From Zygnema cylindricum (taxonomy: Eukaryota; Streptophyta; Zygnematophyceae; Zygnematales; Zygnemataceae), in the NCBI GenBank assembly GCA_037447655.1, contig JBBHKE010002410.1, positions 67,501 to 131,500 of the forward strand: 64,000 nucleotides of DNA, written 5' to 3'. Below, one piece after another: positions 8,586 to 64,000 of the stretch. The first letter of the stretch is position 1. Every line of letters begins with the position of its first letter. The notes under the pieces are model-generated. The model did not search any database and was not told the DNA's origin. It worked only from the letters and a program-made list of their open reading frames with translations. A program made the position numbers and the translations under genes.

Positions 8586-8680
8586 TGTTGACGTACGAAA
8601 AGTGTACCGCTCGATACCCGGAATTGTGGTAATATCAACACCAAAACCTATATAAAATTGGAACCACCAGCGTAACATCT

Positions 8681-8752
8681 GAGCTGGTGGTACAGTGGTT
8701 AGTAAATTCACAGCTAAAGTGAAAGGTCCCACGTTCAAATCCTGGCCGGCTC
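8681..8752 (+). ncRNA. tRNA-like sequence in 5' LTR of TRIM copy 1
   Basis: The acceptor stem GAGCTGG/CCGGCTC pairs over seven positions (one G-U). The A-box region reads TGGTACAGTGG and the B box is CGTTCAAATCC (first base off). The anticodon stem TTCAC/GTGAA is perfect, with a 7-nt loop AGCTAAA. Position 33 is G, not the universal U, so a charged translational tRNA is unlikely. It is best read as a tRNA-derived Pol III promoter within the LTR. Confidence 0.7.
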
Positions 8753-8969
8753 ATCAATCTCTTTATTGGGATCGTTCATTCTATCCCCCGATTCTACGAA
8801 TCTTAACATGGTATGAGAGGTAGGGGGACTAGGTTTACATGGACAATTATGACCGGCTACCTCTCGAGGGGGGGTGTTGACTTACAAAAAGTGTACCGCT
8901 CGATACCCAGAATTGTGGTAATATCCACACTAAAACCTATATAAAATTGGACCCACCAACGTAACATCT

Positions 8970-9037
8970 GAGCTGGTGGTACAGTGGTTAGTACATTCAC
9001 ACCTAAAGTGAAAGGTCCCAGGTATCTTGGCCGGCTC
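8970..9037 (+). ncRNA. Degraded tRNA-like sequence in 3' LTR of TRIM copy 1
   Basis: Same layout as the 5' LTR copy (GAGCTGG...CCGGCTC), but the T-loop/B-box region has lost several bases (AGGTATCTTGG), so the B box is gone. The A box (TGGTACAGTGG) remains. Confidence 0.6.
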
Positions 9038-9267
9038 ATCAATCTCTTTATTGGGATCGTTCATTCAATCCCCCGATTCTAGGAATCTTAACACAGCCTC
9101 CACACACTATACGCACACCAAAACGTTTAGAGTCCTTTTAAAAGACACACACGGTTGCTTTCGTAAGCACTCTACTAATTTTGACACCTTTTCATTAGAA
9201 AAAAAGCTTCATCATTTAATCTCTTAAGATGGGAAGAAACAACATTGATCGATTTTTAGGTTGTATC

Positions 9268-9957
9268 TGATAGGATTTACAATTGTTGAATCTACCTTGC
9301 CGTAATGTTGGTTCGTAGTTAGTGTGGTTTAGATTTGGTCGCGCGTCTGTTTGATTTTGAACTCCGTTCGTCACTTCGCATATTTTGGTTTTGTTTCGTT
9401 TAGTTTGATTTGGTATTTTGTGCATATACGTTTCACGAGTACAAGATTAGATTTAATTTGATTTATTTTGTTTCGTTTAAGTTCTAGTACCGTACGTCGA
9501 GAAGTTTCGTTTCGCGCGACGTACATCTAGTTGTTTCGTTTCGCGTAAAATAAGTTTGTCGTACAAAACTTTGTCAGTTTCGTTTCTAGTAGTTTCATTT
9601 TGCGTTGTACCATATTTGCGTCTAAGTACATTGGGACGCTTCTAGAAATAGTGTTCTAGATTATTTACGTGGCTAAGTTAAAAAGCCATCGTGTAAGTGT
9701 GGTATAATTAATTAGAAAGAAAATTATAAAGAGATAATCACGAATCAATCGAGAGTCAATTAAGGAAAAATGTTAGTATAATGTTTGAGTAAAGGATTGA
9801 GTTAATATGAGTTTATTTTATTGAGTATTCAGTTTGCCTCTAACTTGGATTATGAGTTTTCAATGTGTTATCATGTTTGATTTGATTTTAATTTCGCTTT
9901 CGCATTAAGACATTTATGTAATTGTGAGCGCATTCCGATTGACTCTTATTCCTGTCA
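9268..9957 (+). repeat. 5' LTR of the 9-14 kb Copia
   Basis: 690 bp, with ends TGATAG and CTGTCA. Matches the 3' LTR over the GTTAGTGTGGTT region and the terminal CGCATTCCGATTGACTCTTA block, with scattered indels. Confidence 0.85.
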
Positions 9958-10094
9958 ATTGGTATCGGAGCACTATTTATTTAGATTGGAGTTAAGAATT
10001 GATTAAAAGTTTATAAGTGATAGTGGAGGAATACTCCACAAAGAGAGAAGACATTGAAGTCACTTTTGGAGTTGGAGAATCGGAGAAGCTATCA

Positions 10095-11082
10095 ATGGCG
10101 AAGGAGAGTCTCACAATTCAGTTTGATCCAGCGACTATGGAGGAGCTTTAGGAATTTCTAAAGGCAAAAAGTGAAGGTCAATCATTTGGTAAAACTCATA
10201 CCTTTGGTGGCAATTCAGATGATGAGAGTTCTAAGAAGAAAAAAAAAGGGCAAAATGAAAGTACATTTTTAATAATGATGATGAGTCACATTCAGATGAA
10301 GAATCAAATTATAAGGTGTCTTTTAAGACTATCAGGTTAAATGGAAATAATCATCATGTATGGAAGAAATATATTCAACGAACCTTTACTCCAAAGAAAT
10401 TGTGGAAAATACTTACAGGAGAAGAGAAAAAACCAGTAGATGCAAAAGGAAGGAAAAAGTGGGATGTTAAAGATATGGCAGCTATGACAGCATTACTTCA
10501 GAGTAGTAGTAGTTCAGTTCACGAGGATATGTTAACTCATGATACCGCTCATGCTTGTTGGACTCATCTACAAAATTTGTATGAGAAAGGATTCGCACCT
10601 AAGTCTAATTATGTATTTCAAGACTTTTTTCAGTTTAGGATGAAGAGTAATGAGTCGATTGATGATACTCTAAAAATATTTAATGTTTTCATAGAACCGT
10701 TGAATAGCGCAGGAAAGTTTCCTCCTGAAGATGAAAAAGTATTTCTGTTTCTAAATGGGTTACCATCTAAGTTCGATGTCACAGTAGAAGTTATAAGATC
10801 TATAGAGGATCCTGCTTTTGATTTTGCTATTAATTTTCTAAAAGGTGCAGAGAAGAGTAAAGAGAAAGATAGTAGAGGATTTGGAAAAAGTAATGTAAAC
10901 CTCACAGACATGTTTGATGTATATTCTCTACGTGGTAGTGGACGTAGAGGAAGGTTTAGATCAAGAGTGGGTAGAAACAATTTTCAGTATTTATGATTTG
11001 GAAAGGGTTACAACGATCAAGGTGATGTAAGTCATGATATTTGTTATAAGTGTAAAAAGGAAGGACATGTAGCTATTAGCTG
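10095..11082 (+). pseudogene. gag: Copia gag (capsid and zinc knuckle), broken
   Basis: A likely start at 10095 (MAKESLTIQFDP) is followed by an in-frame stop near 10150 and a frameshift before 10316. A 226-residue open stretch (10316-10996) carries the Copia Gag core: KTIRLNGNNHHVWKKYIQ near its start, HACWTHLQNLYEKG, and LNGLPSKFDVTVEVIRS. After another stop, a CCHC knuckle (CYKCKKEGHVAISC) is encoded at 11041-11082. Gag would package element RNA in cytoplasmic particles; this copy cannot make a full protein. Confidence 0.85.
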
Positions 11083-11458
11083 TTTAGATAGGGAAAAGCA
11101 ATGCAATATTTATTGGAAATAGGGACATATGAGTGCTCAGTGTTTTCAACTAAATAGAGGAGGGTCATCTTACTACTCGAAAAGAGGAGGATCATCTTTA
11201 CTACTCGGAAAGAGAAACAGGTCGAAGTAGACAACGAGGACGAGGTCGTGGAAGATTTGGACAATCACGTGGAGGAGGCCATCAAATCCACTATTCAGAT
11301 TTTCATGACGATCAAGGCGATAAGTCTCTAAATTTTTCTATGATGATGAAAGAAGATGGAAATGTTGTTCTCAATTCTGCAAATTCTGCATGTGGGAGTT
11401 AAAGTTTTAAAGACTGGATAGTTGATTTAGGAGCAACTCATCATGTTTGTAGTGTTCT

Positions 11459-11605
11459 TAGTTTGTTTACAGATTTGTGAAAGCTTACAGTTCCTAAGAC
11501 TATTACGGTAGCTAGTGGACATGTTGTCCTGATTAGTTTGTTTACAGATTTGAGAAAGCTTACAGTTCCTAAGACTATTACGGTAGCTAGTGGACATGTT
11601 GTCCC
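11459..11605 (+). repeat. 75-bp tandem duplication in the Copia protease region
   Basis: TAGTTTGTTTACAGATTTG begins at 11459 and again at 11534, and both copies run through GACATGTTGTCC. The second copy restores an open frame; the first has a TGA. Confidence 0.85.
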
Positions 11606-12441
11606 AATACATACAATGGGAACTGCCAGATTAGATTTACCTGTCAAGAATGTGAAGGGTCAACTTGTTGTGAAGAAATTGAATTTGAACAATACTTTGT
11701 ATTTTCATGATGGAGTTGTAAACCTTGTTAGTGTTCCTCGGATACAAAAGAATGGTGGTGGAGTAACCTAATTTGAAAATGGAAGAATAGTTTTACAAGA
11801 TAGAGAAGGAAATAAATTTGGAGAAATTTCTATAACTGATTGTTTTCAAAGTAAGCTAAAATGGATTAGACCACAGAAAAATCAGAGTTCAGTAATTTCA
11901 ATCAATGTTGTAATTTTTGAAATAAGAGATCTAAGTTTATGGCTTCATAGACTTTGTCATACTTCACAGTCTAATATAAAATATATGATGAAAAGTGCAA
12001 CAGTAGGAGGATTAAAGAGTGTATCCAGAGAGAAAGTTCAAGGTTGTAATGGTTGTAGCAAAAGAAAACAGATTAGAAAATCTCATCCTATCAAAAATGT
12101 GAAGTATAGAGCTAGTGCTCCCCTTGAGCTTGTTCGTGTAGACTTATGTGGAGATTTCAAACCAGTAAGTGTAGGAGTTCATAAGTATATCTTTGTAATT
12201 GTGGATGATTATAGTCGAAGGAGTTGGTATATTTGTTGAAACATAAGTTAGAAGTGTTATATAAGTTTCGAGAATTTGTTGTAATGGCTAATAGAGAAAC
12301 GGATAGAAACGTAAAAGCAGTTAGATCACATAATGGAGGAGAATTTGTTGCTTTTAAAAGCTTTTGTCGCAAAAAGAGGGATTAAGCAACAATTTATGGT
12401 TGCCTATTCACCTGATTTATGGTTGCCTATTCAGCTGAATG

Positions 12442-12660
12442 TAATGGAATTACTGAGAGAAAGAATACGACACTTCAAGAGATGGTTAGGGCTATGTTAC
12501 ATAGCACTAAACATAGTGTGAGGTTTTGGGGAGAAGCTGTTCTTAGAGCAAGTCTAATGGAATTACTGAGAGAAAGAATACGACACTTCAAGGGATGGTT
12601 AGGGCTATGTTACATAGCACTAAACATAGTGTGAGGTTTTGGGGAGAAGCTGTTATTAGA
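12442..12660 (+). repeat. 113-bp tandem duplication in the Copia integrase
   Basis: TAATGGAATTACTGAGAGAA occurs at 12442 and 12555, and both copies run to GGGGAGAAGCTGTT. 113 is not a multiple of three, so the duplication shifts the frame. Confidence 0.85.
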
Positions 12661-13378
12661 GCGAATTATATTTGTAACAGAAGACTAACTCCGGTTTTTG
12701 GAGATAACACGCCTGAAGAATTGTGAAATGGCAGGATTCCATCTGTTCGACATTTGAGGATTTGGGGATGCGGAGCCACTGTCTACATCGAGAAAATTAT
12801 CGAGCGGGAAAATTGAGTCCTAGATCTTGGATGGGTTTTTTTGTTGGGTATAGTCCAAATTCAAGTCAATACAGGATTTTCAATCACGCTACTCGAATGG
12901 TTGTCGAATCAAGGAATGTGGAGTTTCGCGAAGATTTGGCGAAAGCAATGAAGTTCATAAAATATAAGGTAGAAAGTTTGGATTTTGAGGAAGAGAGCGA
13001 TTTTGAGGAGTTCAAAATTAATGACAACAGTGACAAAGAGGAGGATGAAGAAATTCCATTGAAAAAGAAGAAATCTATTAAAGTTGGTAAGAAATCTGAA
13101 TCTTCCCAATTTGATTCTGAAAGCTTGATAAGTGAGAATGGAAGTCAAAGTTCTAAGTCTAGTGAAAGATCCCTTAGCAGACAAAGAAGTGAATGTAGTT
13201 TGCCATCTGTAAGTGAGAAGGGTGAAAGAGATGATGATGTTGAAGAAGAAGTTGTTGTTAGGAGAAGTAATCGAGCGAATAAAGGAAAGGCTCCTGAGAG
13301 ATTAACCCTTCATATGAATGCTAAAGATAAGTCGGTTAATTTTATTTCAGATGCTAGATTAAATGAGTTTCTTTTATA

Positions 13379-13947
13379 GCAATTACTGAGTGAGCCTCTG
13401 AATGGGGATCCTAAGTCCTATTCAGAAGCTGTTGCATCAAGTGATTGGAATGAAAAGTGGAAACCAGCTTTTGAGAAAGAACTTAAGTCTATTATTGATA
13501 ATGGAACATTTGAAGAAGTAGTTTTACCTGAGGGAAAGAAAGCTATTGATTCTAAATGGGTATTTAAGACTAAGACGGGTGCATCAGGTGAAATTATCAA
13601 ATATAAGGCAAGATTAGCTGGTAAAGGTTTTCAGCAGAAAGAAGGTATAGATTATACAGAAACATATGCACCTGTAGTTAAGTTTGATAGTTTAAGGATG
13701 ATTTGTTATTAAGTGTATGAAGTTGTTTTCAGATAGTATGTCTAGCATTGCATTGGCTAAGAATCCAGTGTTTCATAAGAGGACTAAGCACATTAGGATT
13801 CAGTGGCATTTTGTGAGAGATTTAGTTAATGCTGGTGAGATTGAGTTCGTCTTTGTGCCAACGGGTGAAGAAGCAGCTGACATGTTAACTAAAGCTGCTA
13901 TGTATGATGTCTTTGTGAGAGGAAGGCCTAAGTTAGGATTATTTTGA
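13379..13947 (+). pseudogene. pol: Copia reverse transcriptase start fused to RNase H end
   Basis: 13379-13710 encodes the RT N-terminus ([37 protein letters not shown]), then a stop. The next frame (13717-13947) jumps directly to the RNase H tail (DSMSSIALAKNPVFHKRTKH, EEAADMLTKA). The RT palm with its YVDD motif is absent, so a large internal deletion has occurred. Confidence 0.85.
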
Positions 13948-13990
13948 GTTTGATTAAGATTCTGTGTAGATTCAACATTGAGAGGGGGAT

Positions 13991-14633
13991 TGTTAGTGCG
14001 TACAATTTTTGAATCTACGTCTACGGAATGTTAGTTCGTAGTTAGTGTGGTTCAGATTTAGTCGTGCGTTTGTCCGCAGATTTTGGTCTTGTTTCGTATA
14101 GTTTGATTTTATATTTCGTGCGTGTACGTTTCGCGTGTACACGATTTGATTTGATTTGATTTATTTTGTTTCGTTTGATTTCTAGATTAGTACTTCGGGA
14201 AGTTTCGTTTCGCGCGACGTACGTCTAGTAGTTTCGTTTCGCGTCAGTTAAGTTGTCGTACAGAACTTTGTCAGTTTTGTTTCTAGTAGTTTCATTTTGT
14301 TTTGTACCACATTTACGTCTAAGTACATTTAGACACTTCAAGAGTTAATGTTCTAGATTGTTTCTACGGCTAAGTTATAAAGCCATTGTGTGAGTTAGAT
14401 TGTATAACAATTAGGAATCAATCAAGAGTCAATTAAGGAGGAATAAATTAAGAGAAGTGTAATGTTAAAGAATTGAGTTAATATGAGTTTATGTTATTGA
14501 GTATTTAATTTCTCACTATCTTGGATTACGCGCTTTTGATGTGTTGTAATGTTTGATTTCATTTTAATATCGCTTCCGCATTAAGATATAAAAGTATTTG
14601 TGAGCGCATTCCGATTGACTCTTATTCCTATCA
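13991..14633 (+). repeat. 3' LTR of the 9-14 kb Copia
   Basis: 643 bp, preceded by a polypurine tract; starts TGTTAGTGCG and ends CTATCA. About 47 bp shorter than the 5' LTR through internal indels. Confidence 0.85.
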
Positions 14634-16086
14634 CATATAATGTCTAGCGATATGCTGATGTGTCAAGGATCAAATTTTATTTAGAAAGAGCTTTTAGTCC
14701 TCATAATATAGCTTGCTCTCATGTCGTCTTGGCTCAACCATAAGTTTAAAATCTCTTTCTATTTCTCTCCTCTCTAAAGTGATTTCTACTCTTAATCACT
14801 ATAAAATGCTAATAGTTGGTTAGAGATTTCAGGTGAGAATGTCATTGCTCTATTTTAGATTGATTTTCTCAATGATAATTATCAGTCAGAAAAATCATGT
14901 ATTACCAAAATCTTTCTCCCAAGAAAAAAGAATTTAGGACTCCATTATCAACTAGCGACTTATCCCCTCTATGGACCAGCCAGGCGATCCGTCAACAGTT
15001 TTATACTTGGACCCACCATTGATCAACCTTGACTCTTGGCTTGCAAAAGAATGTGAAAACTTTAACCACCACATAACATTCTACCGATGAAAGCTACATT
15101 TTACTAGGTAACATTTCAATTCACAAAATTGGCGTCAATCAAAATTCGACTTCACACGAGCTGCGAGTAATAAATTCGTGCTCGGAACTACAGCAATTGA
15201 TTCTGTAACCGTACAAAAAAAAGCCAAGCCAAAACTGAACAGGCAAAAAAGTGAAATTAAACAACACAACATAAATGAAACAACAATTGACACATTAAAT
15301 CTTATCACTTTCTTACATTGTTCCTACTAAACAGCTTGTTTAATTTTCATAAAAGCCCTCTATCGACCTAGTTATGACGTATATTATTTCTTCCCACCTT
15401 CAAATGTAGTTCAGATGGAGTAGTGAAGTGACACTTGCATCTACTATTCTCCTTTGACTTTGTTAAGGCTATAAGGTCAAGATTACATTGGCTATAAGGT
15501 CAAGATTACATTTGCTCTTTAAGTTTGATTATACGGTTAAGTAAGCAACACGTTGATACATGTCGTATTGTGTGTAACACAAAAAGTTCAGCGTGAGTTT
15601 TTTCCAATCTTGTTTTTAAATTTATTGCTTATTTGTACTTACGAGCAATCAGTGTTTATGAAACAACCACAAGCTCTTCCCATGAAGACTCTTTTTGTCT
15701 CTCTTTCAAACACTTCACTGTCCAATCTGGGAAAAGTAAATCACATTTGTGCCATCAATCATAAGTCAAACGAATTCGATAAAAGCATACACGTCCAAGC
15801 TATAAGGAAACATCGTATTCCACAACTTTATCGATACTACATAAAATTCATACTCTATCATTACGCATATTCACATCAGAACATTATCCACACTCGAATA
15901 AAAGGTTCTTAAGTTTCTTATGTATGTATACCTACCAAACCCAAAACTTTTGACAATTAAAACGCAAACCCGCAATATTCCCAACACCAGAACCCAACTG
16001 CAACTTCTACATGAGTAGATGAGAAACCAAACACCTAAACTGAGACACGCAAGATCTAAACCGAAAACTTAAAGAAAAACTCCTCC
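14634..16086. other. Intergenic, no gene seen
   Basis: AT-rich. A short direct repeat (GGCTATAAGGTCAAGATTAC) lies near 15469-15515. The stretch 15340-15950 resembles 23810-24290 in the same orientation, so it is probably an old dispersed repeat. Confidence 0.4.
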
Positions 16087-16915
16087 TCACTTCTTGAACT
16101 CAAAGATGTCCGAATCTTTCTTGAGCTGCTTTACCACATCGTTTCCAACTTGGAAAGTGGACCTCAAAATGTCGTTAGGAATTCCCTCTGTGAGGAAATT
16201 GAGGTATTCCGTTTTGGGATAGTCGCAACTGTAGGCCCTCACTTGCTCCGCGCGACTGTCATTATCATTCTTTACCCAGTGGAGAATCCCCGCTGGAACC
16301 AACACCACATCCCCTTTACAGAAATTCCGCTCGAGAGTCTCCCCCTTGGGAGAGACCGCTCCCACTTTAACACATCCCTTCGTGACGAGCGCCATCTCCA
16401 CCGCACTGCGAGAACCGGACATTCATGTTAGTTAGAGTCAATTTTATTTTTACTTTAAGTTGTATCTTTAAAAAACCGTAGAAAGTAAAAGACAAAGAAG
16501 AAGACCGGAGAATAAAATAAGTTGAAAAAAAAAGCGTGGGGTGAAATGAGATCAAAGTAGATAAATAGGAAAAAGTCGTAAAAATCAAAAGGGAATTGTG
16601 AGGAAGGGTTGCTTACTCGGTGTGCACGTGAGGGGTGTTCACTGAGTTCTTCTCCATTTTCACCACACTAATAGAGACGCCCTGTCCCACAGCGCCTGAA
16701 ATACGGCCCCACGTGGCATACAAGGATCCGGCAGGAGTCTCAGTTCCGCTCTCCGTTAGCCCTCGCAGCACAAAGGAAACGTTTTCTGGAACGGGGTACG
16801 GAACGGACGTGGGGGTGGAGGAAGGCACTGGGTAAGTGCCTCCCGCCGCACACCCCATCACTAGAATAGAGGCGAAGAGGAGAGATAAAGAAGACTTTCC
16901 GTCAATGAAAGCCAT
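16087..16915 (-). CDS. Germin-like (cupin) secreted protein, two exons
   Basis: Exon 1 is 16915-16617 and exon 2 is 16405-16087 (stop included). The GTAAGC donor and CGCAG acceptor join in phase 2 to give a 205-residue protein. The N-terminus MAFIDGKSSLSLLFASILVM is a signal peptide, pointing to the apoplast. Germin box 1 is formed across the splice site: HVHTDAVEMALVTKG gives HxH(x)4E(x)5G. Box 2 is KGDVVLVPAGILHWVKNDN, giving G(x)5P(x)4H(x)3N. All four metal ligands (three His, one Glu) are present, so a Mn-binding cupin barrel is expected. Germin-like proteins include oxalate oxidases and superoxide dismutases, but activity cannot be told here. The start at MAFID is chosen because the signal peptide starts there and the paralogue shares it. 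A close paralogue lies divergently at 21101-22023. Confidence 0.92.
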
Positions 16916-17020
16916 TGCTTGACTGGTTGTTGGTTGAGACTTGAGAGAAAGAGAGATTTGTGGGATAAGGAAAGATTTCGAATTTTGAAATGACATGGTA
17001 TTAATTTACGCCTTCGGCGG

Positions 17021-17180
17021 TTTTATGCGCCGAGGAACAAAATTCGGGTCACAGAGAAAAGACTGCCGCGTTGACTTTCGATGAATTCGGTCTAAATGTG
17101 CGACGCGGCGATGAATGCCGTTACGTAACGGAAAGTGGTTCCGGCGGCGTCGATTTTGACTGGTGCTTGTCACGTCACTT
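17021..17180 (-). promoter_or_regulatory. Conserved promoter block of the minus-strand germin-like gene
   Basis: On the minus strand this holds a TGACGTGACA-type element (bZIP TGACG core), a GACGCCGCCGGAA block, TTTCCGTTACGTAACGG, and a TATA-like ATAAAACCGCCG about 106-112 bp before the ATG. The same elements in the same order precede the paralogue at 21101. Confidence 0.6.
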
Positions 17181-17967
17181 TGCCAAACCTCTTTTTGTGC
17201 GCTGAACCCGTAGAAGTGCAAGGGCATACTCCCATGTGACCTAAACTTAGTCTTGCTACTTTATTTTTTAGTGAAGATTTCACGTAGTACTTTCAAAGCG
17301 TTCCGCTGTAACGCAATTTAATCGTTACTTAAAATTGTGACGGAAATAAACGTGGGTGTACTTTGTGACGGCTGTAGACGACTACAAAACTTGCGACAAT
17401 TGATGGCGTTTAAAAAAATAGCGACGGTTGGTGGCGTGTAGTTTCTTTTGACATTGTAGAAGTTTAGTGTTTGTGATATTTTGACGACACGCTCACTTAT
17501 CATAGCGTCGACGTCATTAATTATATAACTTTCTAACATGGTTTTCCGATTCTGTTTATTCGTCCTTTCTTACACTCGTTGCTATCAAAATAAGCTCAAA
17601 GGCAGTTAAAAGTAATCTTGTTTAGAGATGTTTCATTTGATATTATTATTGTCGTTTTTCATCGCACGAGATGCGAGATAGACGCGGTACTGTAGTGGGA
17701 GAGGGAGAGAGAAAGAGTCAAGTACTTCGCTTTTGTGAAATGACATCCATTGCTCGAGACCCCTCCACGGTCCCATGCACAGAAAAAACTCCGTACAAGC
17801 TGGAAATGGAGACTAGTTTTATATTTTGGTACTCCGCGTACTGCAAAATAAAATTCAAAAACATCTGACGCGTGCGACAACGTTTGCCATTCGTTCATTT
17901 TTTTTCCCTTCTCATTGTGGAGAATGGCGAAAAATTCTCCCAATATAGGGTTACGCTATGTTGTTGA
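17181..17967. other. Spacer between the divergent germin-like genes, no gene seen
   Basis: No recognisable coding frame. It is followed by a run of small transposons that make up most of the remaining spacer. Confidence 0.4.
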
Positions 17968-20733: not shown

Positions 20734-20825
20734 GTTCCAAATGAAAGCTCAAACTTAAGGATAGCGTTCGTACACCCTTCGTACATTTTGTTCGTCGGCT
20801 TCTGCACGCCAAAGAGTACTGGCAG

Positions 20826-21009
20826 CGTGACGTGACAGGTACAGTACCCGTCGCCATCGGCGCCGCCGGAAGCAGTTTCCGTACCGTAACGGAATTTGGC
20901 TAAGCGTCGCGCGTGGCAGCCGAGCGCAGCGATTCGCCAGCATCGAAAGGTAAGCCGGCGGCCGCTGCGCGCCACCGCAATTTGCTCCCAAGGCGAATAA
21001 AACCGCCGG
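20826..21009 (+). promoter_or_regulatory. Conserved promoter block of the plus-strand germin-like gene
   Basis: GTGACGTGACAGG, GCGCCGCCGGAAGCA, TTTCCGTACCGTAACGG and AATAAAACCGCCGGAAGG occur in the same order as upstream of the minus-strand paralogue. The ATAAAA lies ~100 bp before the ATG and could be the TATA box. Conservation amid otherwise diverged spacer suggests function. Confidence 0.6.
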
Positions 21010-21100
21010 AAGGAGGAATTTGATACCATCTCACTTCAAACTTCGAAATTTTTTCCTTCTCCTACAATTCTCTCACTCTCAACCAACAACCAGACAAGCA

Positions 21101-22023
21101 ATGGCTTTCATTGACGAAAAGTCTTCTTTATCTCTCCTCTTCGCCTCCATTCTAGTGATGGGGTGTGCGGCGGGAGACACCTACTCAGTGCCTCCCTCCT
21201 CCCCCACGTCCGTTCCGTACCCCGTTCCCCAAAACGTGTCGTTTGTGCTGCGCGGACTGAAGGACAGCGGAACAGTGACGCCGGCCGGATCGCTGTTTGC
21301 CACGTGGGGCCGCCTCTCAGGCGCTGTGGGGCAGGGCGTCTCCATTGCTGAAGTGACAATGGAGAAGAACTCCGTCGACACCCCTCACGTGCACACCGAG
21401 TAGGCATCCCTTTCTCACACTCCCCTTCTAATTTTTCAAACTTTTCCCTACTTATCTACTTTGTTCTCATCACCCGCTTCGTTTTTCCTTCCACTTGTTT
21501 TTGTCTTTCGATCTGCTGTATTTACTTCCTATGGTTTTTCTTAGATACAAAGCTCTACCTTGACTTTGACTTTTAAAGTGTGTACTATATATAAGACACA
21601 TTTAGAGTGCAAAGTGCTATAAGGAACAGTGAAAAGTTTTTGTTAAGACACAAAGCTCTACGGTGACTTTGACTTTGACTGCCATGGGTGTCCGGGTCTT
21701 GCAGTGCGGCGGAGATGACTCTCATCACGAAGGGATGCATTAAAGGGGGAGTGTACACACCCAGGGGGGAGCTCATTGAGAATGTTTTGTGTAAAGGGGA
21801 TGTGGTGTTGGTTCCAGCGGGGGTTCTTCACTGGGCAAAGAATGATAATGACAGTCGCGCTAAGAAACTGAGGGCATACAGCAAGGACTTTCCCAAAACG
21901 GAATACCTCAATTTCATTGTAAAGGGAATTCCTGGCGACATTCTGATGGCCACTTTCCAAACCGGAAATGATGTGGTAAAGCAGTTCAAGAAAGATCTTG
22001 ACATCTTTGAGTTTCAGAAGTGA
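21101..22023 (+). CDS. Germin-like (cupin) secreted protein, paralogue, two exons
   Basis: Exon 1 is 21101-21399 and exon 2 is 21705-22023. The exon lengths (299 and 319 bp) are identical to those of the minus-strand paralogue. The donor is GA|GTAGGC, slightly off consensus, and the acceptor is TTGCAG. The signal peptide is MAFIDEKSSLSLLFASILVM. Box 1 spans the junction (HVHTDAAEMTLITKG) and box 2 is KGDVVLVPAGVLHWAKNDN, so all metal ligands are kept. The C-terminus DIFEFQK parallels DIFEFKK in the paralogue. The intron carries a duplicated segment (ACAAAGCTCTAC...GACTTTGACTTT at ~21545 and ~21650) enclosing TTTAGAGTGCAAAGTGCTAT. That motif recurs near 25314-25332, so the intron has taken a small insertion. 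Confidence 0.92.
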
Positions 22024-22448
22024 GGAGTACGCGTTCCTCTCCCTTGAATTCAAAGAAAAATGGGACAGGTTTTTGAATGAATCCATGGATCCACAAGCTC
22101 GAGTTAGTCAACATGTTGCCGGTTTTGATCTGGTTTACCCTGGTCTAGGTTTTCGGTTTATCATCTATGGGTAGAAAATCCAGTTGGGTTCCAGTGTGTG
22201 TCAGTGTGAGTATAGAAATTTGTAAAAGATTTTCGGTTTTGTAGGTAGAAAAACATAAGTGACTTATGAATGGTTGAATGTAGTCTGGAAAATGTAACAA
22301 TGTAGGAATGTGTGAAAAGTATATAATATCGAAATGTTGTGAAGTATGATTTTACGTTTGTAAGAAAAACCAATTGTGTTAGTGGATTGATGATGCATGC
22401 TTTTGGGAAATTTGCATTTGATTTGTAATTGATTACACAAATGCCATG
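22024..22448. other. 3' flank of the germin-like gene, no further gene
   Basis: Likely 3' UTR, then AT-rich spacer. No recognisable coding or RNA signal before the TRIM. Confidence 0.4.
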
Positions 22449-22504
22449 TGTTAAGATTCCTAGAATCGGGGGATAGAATGGACGATCCCAATGAAGGGAT
22501 TGAT

Positions 22505-22575
22505 GAGCCGGCCAGGATTTGAACCTGGGACCTTTCACTTAAGCTGCGAACGCACTACCACTGTGCCACCAGCTC
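22505..22575 (-). ncRNA. tRNA-like sequence in 3' LTR of TRIM copy 2
   Basis: 71 nt that fold as a complete cloverleaf: acceptor GAGCTGG/CCGGCTC, D arm GCAC/GTGC, anticodon stem TTCGC/GTGAA, T arm CCAGG/CCTGG with loop TTCAAAT. The A box is TGGCACAGTGG and the B box GGTTCAAATCC. The anticodon loop is AGCTTAA; read by position, the triplet is CTT, but position 33 is G instead of T. Function as a promoter seems likelier than function in translation. Confidence 0.75.
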
Positions 22576-22792
22576 GGATGTTACGCTGGTGGGTCCATTT
22601 TTATATAGGTTTTAGTGTGGTTTACACCACAATTCCGGGTACTGAGCGGTACAATTTTTGTACGTCAACACCCCCCCTCGAGAGGTAGCCGGTCATAATA
22701 GTCCATGTAAACCTGGTCCCCCTGGCTCTGATACCATGTTAAGATTCCTAGAATCGGGGGATAGAATGGACGATCCCAATGAAGGGATTGAT

Positions 22793-22863
22793 GAGCCGGC
22801 CAGGATTTGAACCTGGGACCTTTCACTTAAGCTGCGAACGCACTACCACTGTGCCACCAGCTC
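22793..22863 (-). ncRNA. tRNA-like sequence in 5' LTR of TRIM copy 2
   Basis: Identical to the 3' LTR copy over all 71 nt. Being in the 5' LTR, it is placed to drive Pol III transcription into the PBS and interior. Confidence 0.75.
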
Positions 22864-22947
22864 GGATGTTACGCTGGTGGGTCCATTTTTATATAGGTTT
22901 TAGTGTGGTTTACACCACAATTCCGGGTTTTGTACGTCAACACCATG

Positions 22948-49300: not shown

Positions 49301-49305
49301 GCGCC

Positions 49306-50115
49306 ATGGCTGCCGCCATATTTAGAAAGTGGCAGTTTTTGCAGATAAGGGTATTTTGGATAAAATGATGCCTAGGTCTAGATTTGAACCTGTGACCTCT
49401 AGACTTTTTATAGCCTAACGCCTTAACCATTAAGGCGTTACGAAACGATACACGTGACGGGTTTCATAAATATATAAATATTAACGAAACAGCTAATTAT
49501 CAGCAGACTAACCAAAATGAGCAATTTCTGCATGTACGCGAATCTGAACCGTGTAAAATATGTTTTGATCGGACGGCCGGCATTAAAGCCGCCACTCGAA
49601 GTGAGCTTTTCGGCGGCATACGGATATAGCGTCACGCGGTGCCACGTGGCGCCACATTATTTGATACCGGAGAAGATGGGAGGAGGAACCATGGCTTCCG
49701 ATATGACAGGTGTCACCTTGTAGACCTTGTCGTACAATAGTTGTACAATAAGTACATCGCCCATTGTACCTTCTTGTACTTTATAGTGTTCCTATTGGAC
49801 TAGGGTTTAATAGTAGGTAGTCGTGAGTAGGCAGACCGAGACTTAGTAATATTTAGGTACCTCTCTCTCTAAGAGAGCTTGTAACTATAAAGGTCATCTT
49901 TGACCAGCCATAACTTACTGCTCGGGTGAGCAAATTCAGTGATTCTTTTTGCGTTTGACTCAGGGGAGTCTTGTCCTCACAAGGGTGAGAGTGGTCAGAA
50001 TATTTGTGTGCCTGGGCGGCGCTTATTCAGCGGGAAAGTAGAAGGGGCAAATATTATCCTAGAGGCTTTACATAGGCTGCTCATTTTGTGGGTCAATGGA
50101 GGCCACAGAATTTCA
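49306..50115 (+). repeat. 5' LTR of Copia A, right-hand segment
   Basis: Continues the LTR begun at 42742-42822, from CATGGCTGCCGCCATATTTA to GGCCACAGAATTTCA, and matches 54613-55422 closely. The gag AUG (50096) is exactly 20 nt from the LTR end. It holds a long hairpin (TAACGCCTTAA, CCA, TTAAGGCGTTA at ~49413-49440). Confidence 0.93.
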
Positions 50116-50818
50116 GGTTATGGGCCCACCCTCTAGGGTGCCCATATTTGATGGATCAGACTTTCTTTATTGGGAAATGATGATGGAGGGAGAACTATTT
50201 GAGAAGCATTTATGGGGCATAGTGTCTGGACAAATTCAATGCCCACCTCCACCTGGGTTTGGAGGGACACGTTTTTCTGGCACCTCCGCCTCTACAGTTG
50301 GTAGAACAGCTGCCACCATCACCGAGGATGAAGATGAGGAAGGAGAAGAGATTGTCATGGAAGGAGAAAAGGAAAGAGTTGCAACTCAAGTAACACCATT
50401 GCCGAAGGCGATACCGGCAGCAGCACCACCAGCAACAACGACAAGGGTTCAGACCGAAAGATCAGAGTATGAAAAGTGGAACTACAAAGACAAGGTTGCT
50501 AAGCTCTTAATTCTTAAAAGTGTAGCAAAGGGCATTGCCATTCCCCTTATGCATGTCAAATCTTCATCTCAGATTTGGATATCACTAGTTAACAAATATA
50601 AGAGTGGATCATTGCAGCAGCAACAGCTGGCAGAAAATAAGATTGCAGCTTATACTTATAAGGGAGGAAGTATGGATAATTATTGCAATGATTTAGGAGC
50701 ATTGTTTGGAGAGTTAGAGAGTGCAGGTAACTCATGGTCTGAGAGACAAAGAGTGAACACATTAATGATGAAACTACCTGAAGAGTATGAGAATATCATT
50801 AACCGATTGAGGACATAG
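50096..50818 (+). pseudogene. gag: Copia A gag, N-terminal part
   Basis: 240 residues from the LTR-borne AUG (MEATEFQVMGPPSRVPIF), with the Copia Gag core (FDGSDFLYWEMMMEGELFEK, LAENKIAAYTYKGG, LMMKLPEEYENIINRL). It ends at TAG where Copia B's Gag continues (VQGMLDSSW). The rest follows in the next frame from 50848. Confidence 0.9.
50116..50130 (+). promoter_or_regulatory. Copia A primer-binding site (initiator tRNA-Met anticodon arm)
   Basis: GGTTATGGGCCCACC, immediately after the LTR and identical to the site in Copia B. It encodes VMGP in the gag frame. Confidence 0.85.
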
Positions 50819-50847
50819 GAGATAGCAATTGGAATTGGGATGACACA

Positions 50848-51780
50848 GTGGGAATGATTTTAGTGAAAGAAAGCACCATAGAGCTTAGGAGAGGGAGTCC
50901 AAGTGTTCAAGCATTGTATGCAGGAGCTGATTGGCGGAAGCGTGATGAGGAGAGAGGGAAAGATCCCTATCGAAACTTTGGTGGAAGAGGACAAGGAGGT
51001 GGCAGATTTGATAGACAAGGGAGAGGAGCTTCTCGAGGAGGATTATGTCACTTCTTCAAGAAACCGGGATACTATATGGCAGATTGTGTCAAACTTGCAG
51101 ATCTTCGACTCAAAGATGGTCAAGGAACCTCAAGGGATGGAGGAAAGGCTTTCTTCACTCAAGTTTATGATGAGGAAGTGGAAGAAAAAACCGAACCAGA
51201 AGAGGAGCTTGAGGAGCTTCTTCTTAATCTAAAAAACACTGAAAAGCATGTCGACATTCCACGGAGACAAAAGTGTGATTTTGGAGGTAAAAGGTATCCA
51301 CCCGAGGATGGATGGATCATAGACTCAAGGGCTTCAATGCATATGTGCAAAGATAAGCGGTGGTTCACTAAACTGAGAAAAATCCCAACAGTTGAGATAG
51401 AGTACGGAGATGGTAGAGTAGAAACCACAAGTCTTGTTGGAACTGTTGACTTGAAGGTTTTAGTTGATGGAAAGGCCTCAATTGTATCACTCTCAGACGT
51501 TCTTTACATTCCACAGCTTAGCAAGAACCTAGTCTCAACAGCTGTCTTAGATGAAAAGGAGTTTGAAACAGGAACTAGGAAAGGAATCTTCACAGCAAGC
51601 TTTGATAATGAGGTTTATTTCATAGCTGAGAAGGGCATTCAAGGAATGTTTAGAATTGTACTTTGCAATGAAAAGAGTGTTCTATACTCGTGTGCAAGTG
51701 AGATGATGCTTTGGCATAAAAGGTTGGGGCATGTGCATCTAGATAGATTAAAGAAAATGAAGAAAAAGGGAATAGTGTAG
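50848..51780 (+). pseudogene. pol: Copia A zinc knuckle, protease and integrase N-terminus, inactivated
   Basis: 310 residues. The knuckle is CHFFKKPGYYMADC: the second Cys is Phe and the His is Tyr, so zinc binding is lost. The protease motif is IIDSRASMHMC (Gly to Arg next to the active Asp). GAG-pre-integrase (WHKRLGHVHLDRLKKMK) is followed by a stop. Confidence 0.9.
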
Positions 51781-53102
51781 GGTATTACTTTTGAAGATGA
51801 TGAGACCTTTGATGATTATAGTGTATGTGCCCAAGGGAAGATTCATAGACTTCCATTTCCAAAGGCAACCACATATAGGAGAGAGAAAGTATTAGATATA
51901 GTTCACACTGATGTTTGGGGACATGCTAGGTATGCTTCACATGGGGGGAAGAGATGGATGTTAACTATCACAGATGATTGGTCTCGATACACGAAGGTAT
52001 ACTTTCTCAAACATAAGTCAGAGGTATTAAGATGTTTCAAAGAGTATAAAGTATGGAGTGAAAGCTACATGAAACCTCAATAAAAGAGATAAGAAGTGAT
52101 AATGGGAAAGAATACACCTCAAGGGAATTTGAAGAATATCTTAAAGAAGAAGGAATTCATCATGAGAAAACAATTCCCTATAATCCGGAACAAAATGGAG
52201 TAGCAGAAAAAGTGAATAGAATTTAGAAGATATATCCAGAAGTATGTTAAGTGACAAGAGGATAGGGCTGCAGTTTTGGGCTGAGTCTATGAACTATGCC
52301 AACTTCATCAAAAATAGAGTCCTAACTTCAGCAAATAAATAGGAAACTCCGTATGAGAGGTGGACAGGAAGAAAGCCTGATTTGTCTAGTTTGAGTGTTC
52401 GGAAGTCAAGTTTATAGTTTAGATTCCGATAAGACTAAATGGAAGTTAGAGGGAAGAGGGAAACCAGGATATCTTGTAGGATATGATGAGAGCACAAAAG
52501 GATACCGAGTGAACGACTTGAAAAAGAGAGATATAATTCTGGAAAAACACATAGTGGTGATGAATGAAGAGAAGTCCATTGATCCATTCAAATATAATAA
52601 GGAAGTCAAAATCAGATTTGAAACGGATCAGTTTTCTGACTTTGACTTTGAAAATGAAGAGAAGGAAGAGGGAGAAAAAGAAAAATCTGCAGATCTACCA
52701 AAGGAGAAGGAGGAAAGGACAACATCCGAGGCAACGCCACAATACGAAGTGGAAACCGATGAGGAACTTGATGAGACACCGGAATTGGAAGATAGGGAAG
52801 CTGAAAATTTCCCAAAACGAAACCCAAGAATGCCTTCCATACCAGCGTCCGATTTTGAAGGGGGAAGAAGAAGTAGTAAACGACTTCAAGAAAGACAAGT
52901 AAATAACCAACTCACAAAGATGTCTCACCCAGATGAACCTCAAACATACTTAGAGGCCATAAACACTCCAGAAAGTAGCCGGTGGATCACAGCTATAAAT
53001 GAAGAAATGGCCTCTATCATGGAAGCCAATACATGGGAGTTGGTAGATTGTCCACCGGACCGAAAACCGATCGGATGTAAGTGGGTGTTAAACTTAAATT
53101 AA
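51781..53102 (+). pseudogene. pol: Copia A integrase core and linker, broken
   Basis: Pieces with stops between: DDYSVCAQGKIHRLPF, DVWGHARYAS, ITDDWSRYTKVYF, then SDNGKEYTSREF and NPEQNGVAEKVN. From 52395 a 235-residue frame has FGSQVYSLDSDKTKWKLEG, GKPGYLVGYDESTKGY, an acidic linker and the start of RT (CKWVLNLN), where a lost base breaks the frame. Confidence 0.87.
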
Positions 53103-54518
53103 ACCCCGATAATACCATTGAGAGGTACAAAGCTAGGTTAGTTGCAAAAGGTTATACTCAGAAAGAGGGGATAGACTACGAAGAAACCTTTGCACCTGTA
53201 GTCAGATTTCCTTCAGTTAGAATCCTTTTAAGTATAGCCGCAGCGGAGGATATGGAAATACACCAGATGGATATTAAAACGGCCTTTTTGCACGGAGAGT
53301 TGGAAGAAGAAATTTACATAAGGCAACCGGAAGGATTCGTGGAAAGCGGGGAAGAAAGCAAGGTTTGTAAACTAATAAAATCACTCTATGGGCTTAAGCA
53401 AGCCCCACGACAATGGAATATAAAGCTAGACGAATTTCTGACCGGTTTTGGGTATATCAGAATTAGTTCACATCACTCTATATATTTATTTGAGGATGAG
53501 AATGGAGTGATATTTATTGCTATTTATGTAGATGATTTGTTGGTCTTAAGCAAGTCTTAGATAAAATTAACAAACTAAAACGAGATCTTAGAAGCAGTTT
53601 TGATATGAAAGATCTCGGCGAAGCAAAGTATATTTTGGGAATTCAAATGGAGAGAGATAGAGGGAATAGAATTATAAGACTCACTCAATAAGAGCAATCA
53701 GTAATATGCTAGAAAGTTTTCAGATGGAAAAAGCAAACGGATGTACTACTCGTATGGATTTGAAGAATGTGTTTGAGGGGAGTGAAGAGAGAGGAATATT
53801 GATCATTAATGATGAGATCGATGAGATACAAAGAAAATTTATAGAAAATATCCTTTATCGGCAGATTGTAGGCAGTTTAATTTATTTAATGAACTGTACC
53901 CGTCCGGATATAGCTGCAGCTGTAGGTGTCCTTAGTAGAAGTCTAAATGAACCAAGAAAGAGAGACTGGGAGGCTACCAAAAGGGTGATGAGGTATCTGG
54001 TGAGGACAAGGGAATTATGGTTGCATTTGGGAGGGGAGCACACTGACATCACCAACTGGAGTGATGTCAGTTATGGAGATGTGCCTTTAAGGCGGTGTAC
54101 GACTGGATATGTGTTGCAAATTAGATCCGGTGCATGTTGTTGGAGTAGCAAGCAACAAAAAGTAATTGCTCAGTCCACTATGGAGGCTGAATACATGGCT
54201 TCCTGTGCTGCCACCAAAGAATTAATGTGGGTTAAATCTCTTCTTGAAGAACTTGGGTTCATGAAGTCTGGAACTCAAAATGTTTTTTGTGATAATCAAG
54301 CTGCTATCTCTATTGCAGCTAATCCGAAACATCACTTCAAAGCTAAGTATATGGATATTAGACTGAGCTTTGTCAGAGAGAAGGTTGAAAATAAAATTAT
54401 TAAACTGGTTCATAAAACTGATAGAGAAATGATAGCAAACATGATGACAAAACCAGTGCCTTCCCCTAAGTTGATTTATTGCAGAGAAAACTGTGGATTA
54501 AAATTAAAAAGTGACTAG
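53081..54518 (+). pseudogene. pol: Copia A reverse transcriptase and RNase H, broken
   Basis: 53081-53560 encodes [51 protein letters not shown] and the YVDDLLVL catalytic motif. A stop then breaks it. After a shifted stretch, 53706-54518 carries the RT thumb and RNase H (STMEAEYMASCAATKELMWV, FCDNQAAISI, MDIRLSFVREK) ending just before the polypurine tract. Confidence 0.9.
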
Positions 54519-54531
54519 GAATTAAGGGGAG

Positions 54532-55422
54532 TGTTGAAAAGAGGTAATTAATAGTTCACTTCTCTATTTTAGTTTTACTTTAAAGAAAGAGAGTGAGGAT
54601 CAAAGGCACGCCATGGCTGCCGCCATATTTAGAAAGTGGCAGTTTTTGCAGATAAGGGTATTTTGGATAAAATGATGTTGAGGTGTAGATTTGAACCTGT
54701 GACCTCAAGACTCTTTGTAGCCTAACGCCTTAAACATTAAGGCGTTACGAAACGATACACGTGACGGGTTTCATAAATATATAAACATTAACGAAACAGC
54801 TAATTAACAGCAGACTAACCAAAATGAGCAATTTCTGCATGTACGCGAATCTGAACCGTGTAAAATATGTTTTGATCGGACGGCCGGCATTAAAGCCGCC
54901 ACTCGAAGTGAGCTTTTCGGCGGCATACGGATATAGCGTCACGCGGTGCCACGTGGCGCCACATTATTTGATACCGGAGAAGATGGGAGGAGGAACCATG
55001 GCTTCCGATATGACAGGTGTCACCTTGTAGACCTTGTCGTACAATAGTTGTACAATAAGTACATCGCCCATTGTACCTTCTTGTACTTTATAGTGTTCCT
55101 ATTGGACTAGGGTTTAATAGTAGGTAGTCGTGAGTAGGCAGACCGAGACTTAGTAATATTTAGGTACCTCTCTCTCTAAGAGAGCTTGTAACTATAAAGG
55201 TCATCTTTGACCAGCCATAACTTACTGCTCGGGTGAGCAAATTCAGTGATTCTTTTTGCGTTTGACTCAAGGGAGTCTTGTCCTCACAAGGGTGAGAGTG
55301 GTCAGAATATTTGTGTGCCTGGGCGGCGCTTATTCAGCGGGAAAGTACAAGGGGCAAATATTATCCTAGAGGCTTTACATAGGCTGCTCATTTTGTGGGT
55401 CAATGGAGGCCACAGAATTTCA
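54532..55422 (+). repeat. 3' LTR of Copia A
   Basis: 891 bp, TGTTGAAAAG...AGAATTTCA. Differs from the 5' LTR at scattered positions. It contains an antisense tRNA-like module at ~54675-54752. Confidence 0.93.
54675..54752 (-). other. Antisense tRNA-like module in Copia A LTR
   Basis: The minus strand reads GCCTTAATGTTTAAGGCGTT (A-box-like, also an 11-bp hairpin) and, ~45 bp on, CACAGGTTCAAATCT (B-box-like). It recurs in the 5' LTR at ~49380-49441, where the A region is TTAATGGTTAAGGC. Confidence 0.5.
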
Positions 55423-57790: not shown

Positions 57791-58829
57791 TGTAGAAATT
57801 CATGGTTTTTCTGTGAAGTATTTTCTAAGTCTAAATTGTGTAAAATAATATGCAGGAAACCAACAAAGGCAGCCAGCCTTTTCCACCTCTCTCAAGTCCC
57901 CACTCTTGTCGCAATCACTGAAGACTGGAGAGGGAATCAGAGCCATGGTTGCCTATGCTGTTCCACAAAGACAGGGAGCAGTCCAAGTTAGAGTTACCAA
58001 AATGGTTGGATGAGCCCAAGATTTGATCTTGGTACCTATTATCCTTCAGAGCAGCCAATAGCCGTTAGCGTTGTCCTATAGGCTAAGAATTGTGTTGAGA
58101 TATATAGGGCGTGATAGCTACTTAAACACTATCTTGTAGACCAATCCATTTAACTGAGAGAATAGACTTGACTCAGTTGGACAAATAGTGTGAACTAAGA
58201 TATTGCACAAAACAAATGTTCCGCACGTTTGTTTCAACAGCTAATATTAAAAGCCGGTTTGGATCAAAAGGTCAACGTGGGAGCCGACATAGCGGAATGG
58301 TCGCATTGGCGGTTTTCGGTTACCTCATCACCAAGTGATATCTGGCGCTACCTCAATGGCTTGCGGCATTTCTGGAGCACACCAAAACAAGTCTGGATAT
58401 GACAAGCTTCAAGTTTTTGGCCATGCCTTACAGTGGCTGTACAGATGGTACTCCGACCCAAGAACCTTTATGTACTGTACAGTTGCTTGATTTGTGCCGT
58501 ACATCAGTAGAAGGAGGTTTAAGACTTAGTCAAAACTTAGGTAGCCGTCTCTCTCACAGAGTGCATCTGTATTTACATACCATCTTTGGCCAGCCATAAC
58601 TTACTGCTTAGGGGAACAAATTGCCTAATTTCCTGATCAAATTGCCTTATTGCCTTATTTTTTTCTGGCAGACTCAAGGGAGTCTTGCCTTCACTTGGCT
58701 GAAGTCAAATTAGTCATTTGTCTGTCAGGGTGGCAGACATTATTCATCAAACACAAGTGGGTCAGTGCTATCTTAGAGGCTTGGTGTGAGCTGCCTACTT
58801 TGAGAACCCATGGAGGTCTCAGTATTGCA
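57791..58829 (+). repeat. 5' LTR of Copia C
   Basis: 1039 bp. Contains an antisense tRNA-like module at 58015-58095 and the gag AUG at 58810, again exactly 20 nt from the LTR end. Confidence 0.85.
58015..58095 (-). other. Antisense tRNA-like module in Copia C LTR
   Basis: The minus strand has TAGCCTATAGGACAACGC (A-box-like) and a perfect 5-bp T-stem CCAAG/CTTGG closing a 7-nt loop ATCAAAT. This is the best tRNA resemblance among the Copia LTRs. The 3' LTR repeats it at ~63838-63915. Confidence 0.55.
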
Positions 58830-63623: not shown

Positions 63624-64000
63624 TGTAAAAATTCATGGTTTTTTGTGAAGAATTTTCTAGGTCTAAATTGAGTAAAATAAAATACAAGAAATCAACAAAG
63701 GCCATACATCTTACTCCTTTTTCAAATCCCCACACTTGTCGCAGTCACTAAAAACTGGAGAGGGAGTCAGAGCCATAACTGCCTATGCTGTTTCATAGTG
63801 CAGTCCAGGTAAGAGTTAGCAAAAAGGTTGGACGGACCCAGGATTTTATCGTGGTACCTATAATCTATCAGACTAGCCAGTAGTCGTTAGCGTTGTCTTA
63901 TAGGCTAAGAACTGTGTTGAGATATATGGGGCGTGAAAGCAACTTAAACACTAACTTGTAGATCATTTTATTTAAATAAAAGAACAGACTAGAGCATATA
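63624..64000 (+). repeat. 3' LTR of Copia C, cut by the window edge
   Basis: TGTAAAAATTCATGGTTTTT matches the 5' LTR start. It includes the antisense tRNA-like module near 63838-63915. Confidence 0.82.

Follow-up and report, generated by a model that had tools for sequence, protein, structure and literature searches.

Which polymerase transcribes a retroelement whose LTRs each contain a tRNA-like sequence, and what is that sequence for? The question is raised by a ~500-bp TRIM in the 64-kb window (the whole stretch of DNA that was analysed), for which the initial annotation gave exact coordinates, 22449..22942. The features of this focal element, with the LTRs, PBS, polypurine tract and target site duplication (TSD) on which the assignment rests, are as follows.

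22449..22942, minus strand: whole TRIM copy 1 (494 bp), with the ends TGTT...AACA
22737..22942, minus strand: 5' LTR (206 bp; 16 nt of the 3' LTR are missing)
22449..22670, minus strand: 3' LTR (222 bp)
22444..22448: TSD CCATG, from the sequence
22943..22947: TSD CCATG, from the sequence
22721..22736, minus strand: PBS TGGTATCAGAGCCAGG, complement of the 3' end of host tRNA-iMet plus CCA
22671..22679, minus strand: polypurine tract GAGGGGGGG, from the sequence
22792..22863, minus strand: tRNA-like module of the 5' LTR (ARAGORN; Rfam, 56.3 bits)
22504..22575, minus strand: tRNA-like module of the 3' LTR (ARAGORN; Rfam, 56.3 bits)
22846..22856, minus strand: A box TGGCACAGTGG of the 5' LTR (pattern match)
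22803..22813, minus strand: B box GGTTCAAATCC of the 5' LTR (pattern match)
22887..22895, minus strand: TATA box TATATAAAA of the 5' LTR, starting 32 nt before the module (from the sequence)
8586..9093, plus strand: TRIM copy 2 (508 bp), with TSD TAGCC/CAGCC and decayed modules at 8681-8753 and 8970-9038

In sense order, the focal TRIM consists of the 5' LTR, the PBS, a 66-bp interior ending in the polypurine tract, and the 3' LTR. The LTRs have TG..CA ends and differ by no substitutions and one 16-nt deletion (in the 5' LTR), both carry TATATAAAA 32 nt ahead of the module, and the flanking 5-bp TSD is perfect. Both window copies are shorter than 1000 bp, and no ORF of at least 150 aa overlaps either of them.

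Each focal LTR contains one sense-oriented cloverleaf of 72 nt, one more than the 71 nt originally reported, which matches Rfam RF00005 (tRNA; 56.3 bits, E 1.9e-9) and is labelled Lys-CTT by ARAGORN. The latter program made no calls in 2000 dinucleotide-shuffled elements or in 40 shuffled windows, and the combined A-box and B-box pattern matches only the two focal LTRs within the window. The description of the tRNA-like promoter as complete is valid for the focal copy only, because both modules of copy 2 are decayed: the 5' LTR module has lost one base pair in the D stem and another in the T stem, and the B box of the 3' LTR module is short of 4 nt. The LTRs of copy 2 diverge by 6%. The two window copies differ at 7 of 72 module sites versus 17 of 150 sites elsewhere and, by themselves, give no sign of module retention. 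Another locus, G000:C56:75364-75871, shows 99% identity to copy 2 and, given the 6% difference between the LTRs of the latter, is probably a duplicated locus. When folded in isolation, the focal module adopts the cloverleaf (z -1.9; 8 of 200 shuffles fold equally well), and when it is folded together with its leader, a non-cloverleaf structure is preferred. The leader segment 22873-22879 can pair with the acceptor/D-arm strand at 22855-22861 (minus strand; 7 bp, loop of 11), in competition with the cloverleaf.

The genome search with the LTR that had been proposed at the outset identified a dispersed family in the host assembly (353 Mb, 2689 contigs; 880 candidates on first look, 40 of them scored): the 16-mer at the module/U5 junction has 149 exact copies, compared to one for the reversed control. 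A first copy set was compiled from 30 fetched loci and window copy 2; after removal of three overlapping loci (L015, L017 and L030) and one solo LTR, it comprised 28 elements with 61 LTRs, with a bias towards the focal subfamily because the best-scoring copies were chosen. The second set consists of 12 further, previously unfetched copies that are older than those in the first. The 5-bp TSD is perfect in 19 of the 28 first-set elements (the focal one and 18 others) and retains 4 of 5 letters in two, whereas in the remaining seven either there is no TSD or the element end is misplaced; in the second set, it was found in 7 of 12 copies. The median LTR divergence (K) in the first set is 0.035, and in three of the 28 elements, the LTR pairs are identical apart from gaps. 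The family has many copies and was recently active. Two loci are tandem TRIM arrays within perfect TSDs, namely, L012 with four LTRs and L027 with three. Searches for relatives in public collections yielded no matches with four patterns against viral contigs and one against genome contigs; these collections may leave out entries close to the genome of the window. Among the host LTRs, ARAGORN calls a tRNA in 53 of 61 modules, and Rfam matches were obtained for 32 of 44 LTRs from 20 loci.

To assess constraint on the module, we contrasted two kinds of LTR difference: those within elements, which arose after insertion, and those between elements, counted only where the two LTRs of an element agree, which were present at insertion. 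In the first set (28 elements), the module shows 12 fixed and 81 within-element differences versus 33 and 92 for all of the upstream LTR (odds ratio 0.41, p 0.018), and in the second set (12 copies), 6 and 94 versus 21 and 78 (odds ratio 0.24, p 0.0018); these p values are nominal because the tests ignore the relatedness of the copies. U5 is as constrained as the module, with 7 fixed and 59 within-element differences in the first set, and 1 and 66 in the second. In the first set, within-element differences are most frequent in the B box (24/302), for which the between-element diversity is 0.027; the corresponding values for U3 are 51/1395 and 0.089. Taken alone, the A box does not stand out in the first set, and the within-element count of the B box is near average in the second (13 over 11 sites). 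Neutral decay of the A and B boxes, which the initial annotation had named as evidence against its reading, is not what these data show: in both copy sets, the module, and U5 equally, is free to decay after insertion and is constrained between insertions.

On balance, we favor the interpretation of this element as a Helenus-type TRIM ("TRIMp3"), that is, a non-coding LTR retrotransposon mobilized in trans by a Copia, with an LTR promoter that includes the intact tRNA-like module. Judging from the sequence features, Pol III transcription is the likeliest use of the module. Binding of TFIIIC to the A and B boxes, aided by the TATA box at -32, would place the Pol III start site at the 5' LTR module or immediately ahead of it; as the element lacks TTTT, the polymerase would read through the 3' LTR and stop at the first T-run in the flank. 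A Copia that uses an iMet PBS would package the resulting RNA, tRNA-iMet would prime its reverse transcription, and integration would generate a 5-bp TSD. Poly(A) would be dispensable in this model, as the 3' LTR contains a copy of R-U5 to which strong-stop DNA can jump.

The lack of a sense-strand TTTT, put forward earlier as evidence of read-through, does hold for both window copies, but it is a weak argument and is rejected as a sign of selection, given that TTTT is also missing from 452 of 1000 shuffles of the stretch that begins at the 5' module and ends with the element. This stretch is free of TTTT in 23 of 28 first-set elements and in 4 of 12 in the older set; the elements that do contain TTTT (5 of 28 and 8 of 12, respectively) count against the read-through model. 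The first TTTT past the element end lies at 80 nt in copy 1 and at 43 nt in copy 2, with a median of 45 nt for the first set, in which one copy has none. It also counts against the model that a complete cloverleaf could be cleaved by RNase P and RNase Z, with harm to the template.

A competing explanation, to which we assign a distinctly lower although appreciable probability, is that this is an ordinary Pol II TRIM, in which the TATA box sets the start at the 5' edge of the module, and a captured tRNA-like piece is retained for the R region or RNA structure, or simply by descent. The TATA box, with no fixed changes in the first set and one in the second, fits Pol II as much as Pol III, and the constraint on U5, equal to that on the module in both sets, is compatible with this scenario. 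It is harder to reconcile with the behavior of the B box in the first set, where the top within-element rate is combined with a low between-element rate, and with the presence of an intact A and B box at such a position, a match to a known class as described in the accessible part of PMC10886601.

A further, rather unlikely possibility is that the whole cloverleaf, beyond the A and B boxes, is preserved by selection acting on the RNA: as a tRNA mimic close to the 5' end of the retroelement transcript, it might serve in processing, export or packaging besides its promoter role, with the leader, complementary to the acceptor/D-arm strand, as a possible switch. Covariation, which counts in favor of the Helenus-type reading, was examined in 47 distinct modules: that of window copy 2 and 46 from a list of 48, two of which were truncated and dropped. 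Standard pairing is maintained in 96.6% of the pair cells, and in four pairs both partners are changed. None of the 500 shuffles reaches the covariation score or the number of both-side cells, a comparison in which kinship of the sequences can beat shuffles even without structure, and the number of both-side-changed pairs is equalled in 16 of 500. Stem changes covary among the host modules, but the independent events are few, because a single C-G to U-A change in one subfamily supplies 8 of the 11 both-side cells.

The source of the module was sought among host tRNAs, with 63 of 24620 candidate tRNA places scored and an incomplete set of isotypes. The focal module is most similar to tRNA-Arg(CCT) (50/73 identical positions; alignment score 25), followed by Cys (47/73; 17) and iMet (48/74, with a lower gapped score; 14). 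Parentage from Arg-CCT is provisional, given this partial coverage and the second-subfamily module, for which Cys (47/74) compares with Arg (45/73). It appears very improbable that the element acquired its module from tRNA-iMet, the primer it uses itself, in the course of reverse transcription: iMet scored best among 20 plant tRNAs, but the idea was dropped once the host genes were compared, in which iMet falls below both Arg-CCT and Cys, and the second-subfamily module scores 1 against iMet.

Nor is the module likely to be a working tRNA gene. Functional tRNAs require U33; of the 61 host LTR modules, 59, the focal one included, have G at this position, so that decoding is unlikely, and the body does not match the predicted isotype, with 55% identity between the focal module and host tRNA-Lys-CTT. 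Two genuine tRNA genes in a chance tandem duplication, which the ARAGORN and Rfam calls might bring to mind, can be dismissed given the LTR ends, PBS, polypurine tract, dispersed TSD-flanked copies and G33. Annotation calls for caution here, since LTRs can account for many of the tRNA-Lys or suppressor genes predicted in a genome of this kind.

The helper postulated under the favored Helenus-type reading can be approached through the PBS. A pattern search identified six host iMet places, with the 3' ends CTCTGATA (two places), CTTTGATA and CTCCGATA, and two additional, divergent copies. The PBS of the TRIM family occurs in three versions that correspond to the first three host iMet versions. 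It is exact over 16 nt in 16 of the 28 first-set elements and has at most one mismatch in 24 (one a tie), and none of the 28 is nearest to the fourth iMet version tested; in the second set, the respective counts are 4 and 7 of 12. The most variable of the 16 PBS positions are the two that differ among the three host versions; interior positions 22 and 37, downstream of the PBS, are equally variable. Rewriting of the PBS by the primer is a classical property of LTR retrotransposition and, if it occurs at each insertion, predicts that PBS type is independent of LTR relatedness. In this family, PBS type does not track LTR kinship: the nearest element by LTR shares the PBS type in 6 of 26 cases (two ambiguous elements were dropped, and no expectation was computed). 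The PBS seems to preserve a trace of the initiator tRNA used as primer at the respective insertion. Two Copia elements of the window bear on the identity of the helper.

9278..14633, plus strand: decayed Copia with an iMet PBS at 9960-9971, LTR-like repeats, and RT and gag domains
50116-50130: PBS GGTTATGGGCCCACC of the Copia at 49302-55422, complement of the host tRNA-iMet anticodon arm (half-tRNA primer)

The PBS of the decayed Copia corresponds exactly to the third host iMet version, which makes a Copia of this type a plausible helper; the window contained no helper with sequence in common with the TRIM. The two other Copias with a PBS that were examined have a half-tRNA-iMet site, which suggests the Osser, Bryco or Gymco-II lineages as characterized in the accessible part of PMC6317226 and, tentatively, a host outside the flowering plants. 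A protein search with Copia gag-pol retrieved 13 proteins with 21-49% identity, and the search with RT showed 40-50% identity among the best 120 of 2576 matches.

Other tRNA-like or 5S-like sequences were noted in the window and in the host. A decayed tRNA-like stretch with the B-box-like GGTTCAAATC occurs in antisense orientation within each LTR of the Copia at 49302-55422 (minus strand, 49366-49445 and 54673-54745), and neither ARAGORN nor Rfam made a call on these stretches. Weak matches to the T-arm of the module (AGGTACCA.GAT.AAATC) are present at 58001-58037 and 63838-63859 (minus strand), in LTR-like repeats at 57791-58171 and 63624-63993. At host loci L087 and L089, 5S rRNA-like sequences with modest Rfam scores are paired ~820-860 bp apart within local repeats and, by their sequence, are assigned to decayed 5S units; no rRNA linkage or PBS was found within 1.5 kb on each side of four host 5S loci. 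The focal TRIM lies ~420 nt past one member of an inverted pair of two-exon cupin-like genes (16083-17194, minus strand; 20811-22027, plus strand), and is oriented towards it. Pfam Cupin_1 is detected in the second exon, and a protein search with a cupin exon gave no match.

Among known systems, tRNA-derived SINEs share a tRNA-like head carrying A and B boxes. The TRIM described here has, in addition, LTRs, a PBS, a polypurine tract and 5-bp TSDs, which imply integrase-type insertion, unlike that of a SINE. With Cassandra, according to the accessible parts of PMC7215508 and PMC10853983, it shares the status of a plant TRIM, an LTR that contains sequence of a Pol III gene, the PBS TGGTATCAGAGC, and tandem arrays. 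The LTR of Cassandra contains 5S rRNA sequence, whereas that of the present element contains a tRNA (Rfam), and an Rfam search of the 64-kb window detected no 5S rRNA. The accessible part of Gao 2016 (PMC4717578) reports TRIMs for the flowering plants that were studied, for Selaginella and for three algae, but none for Physcomitrella; that text uses none of the terms "tRNA gene", "tRNA-like", "Pol III" or "polymerase III".

The suggestion that this kind of element had not been described is not supported: the tRNA-bearing class was named Helenus in 2024 by Kojima (PMC10886601), the sole paper returned, by abstract, in a literature search for tRNA-bearing TRIMs with subscription papers outside its scope. 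As presented in the accessible part of that paper, Helenus occurs in fungi, animals and one plant, Selaginella moellendorffii being the only one listed; is grouped with Cassandra and Ajax as TRIMp3; and was proposed from consensus sequences, with its Pol III promoter unproven. The present plant family was active recently and makes this Pol III question directly testable, owing to copies with identical LTRs, the measurable contrast between post-insertion decay and between-insertion constraint, and a PBS that seems to record the primer. The features held in common, again following the accessible description, are a length below 1000 bp, two LTRs, the non-coding character, a PBS and polypurine tract at the interior ends, the presence in each LTR of a tRNA-like sequence that includes A and B boxes and is unlikely to be a working tRNA, and a 5-bp TSD (in the fungal and plant families). 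Helenus-1_SMo has an LTR of 120 bp and an interior of 85 bp, compared to 206-222 bp and 66 bp here, a comparison made by description only. The TRIM family appears to be a new and well-preserved representative of Helenus in plants.
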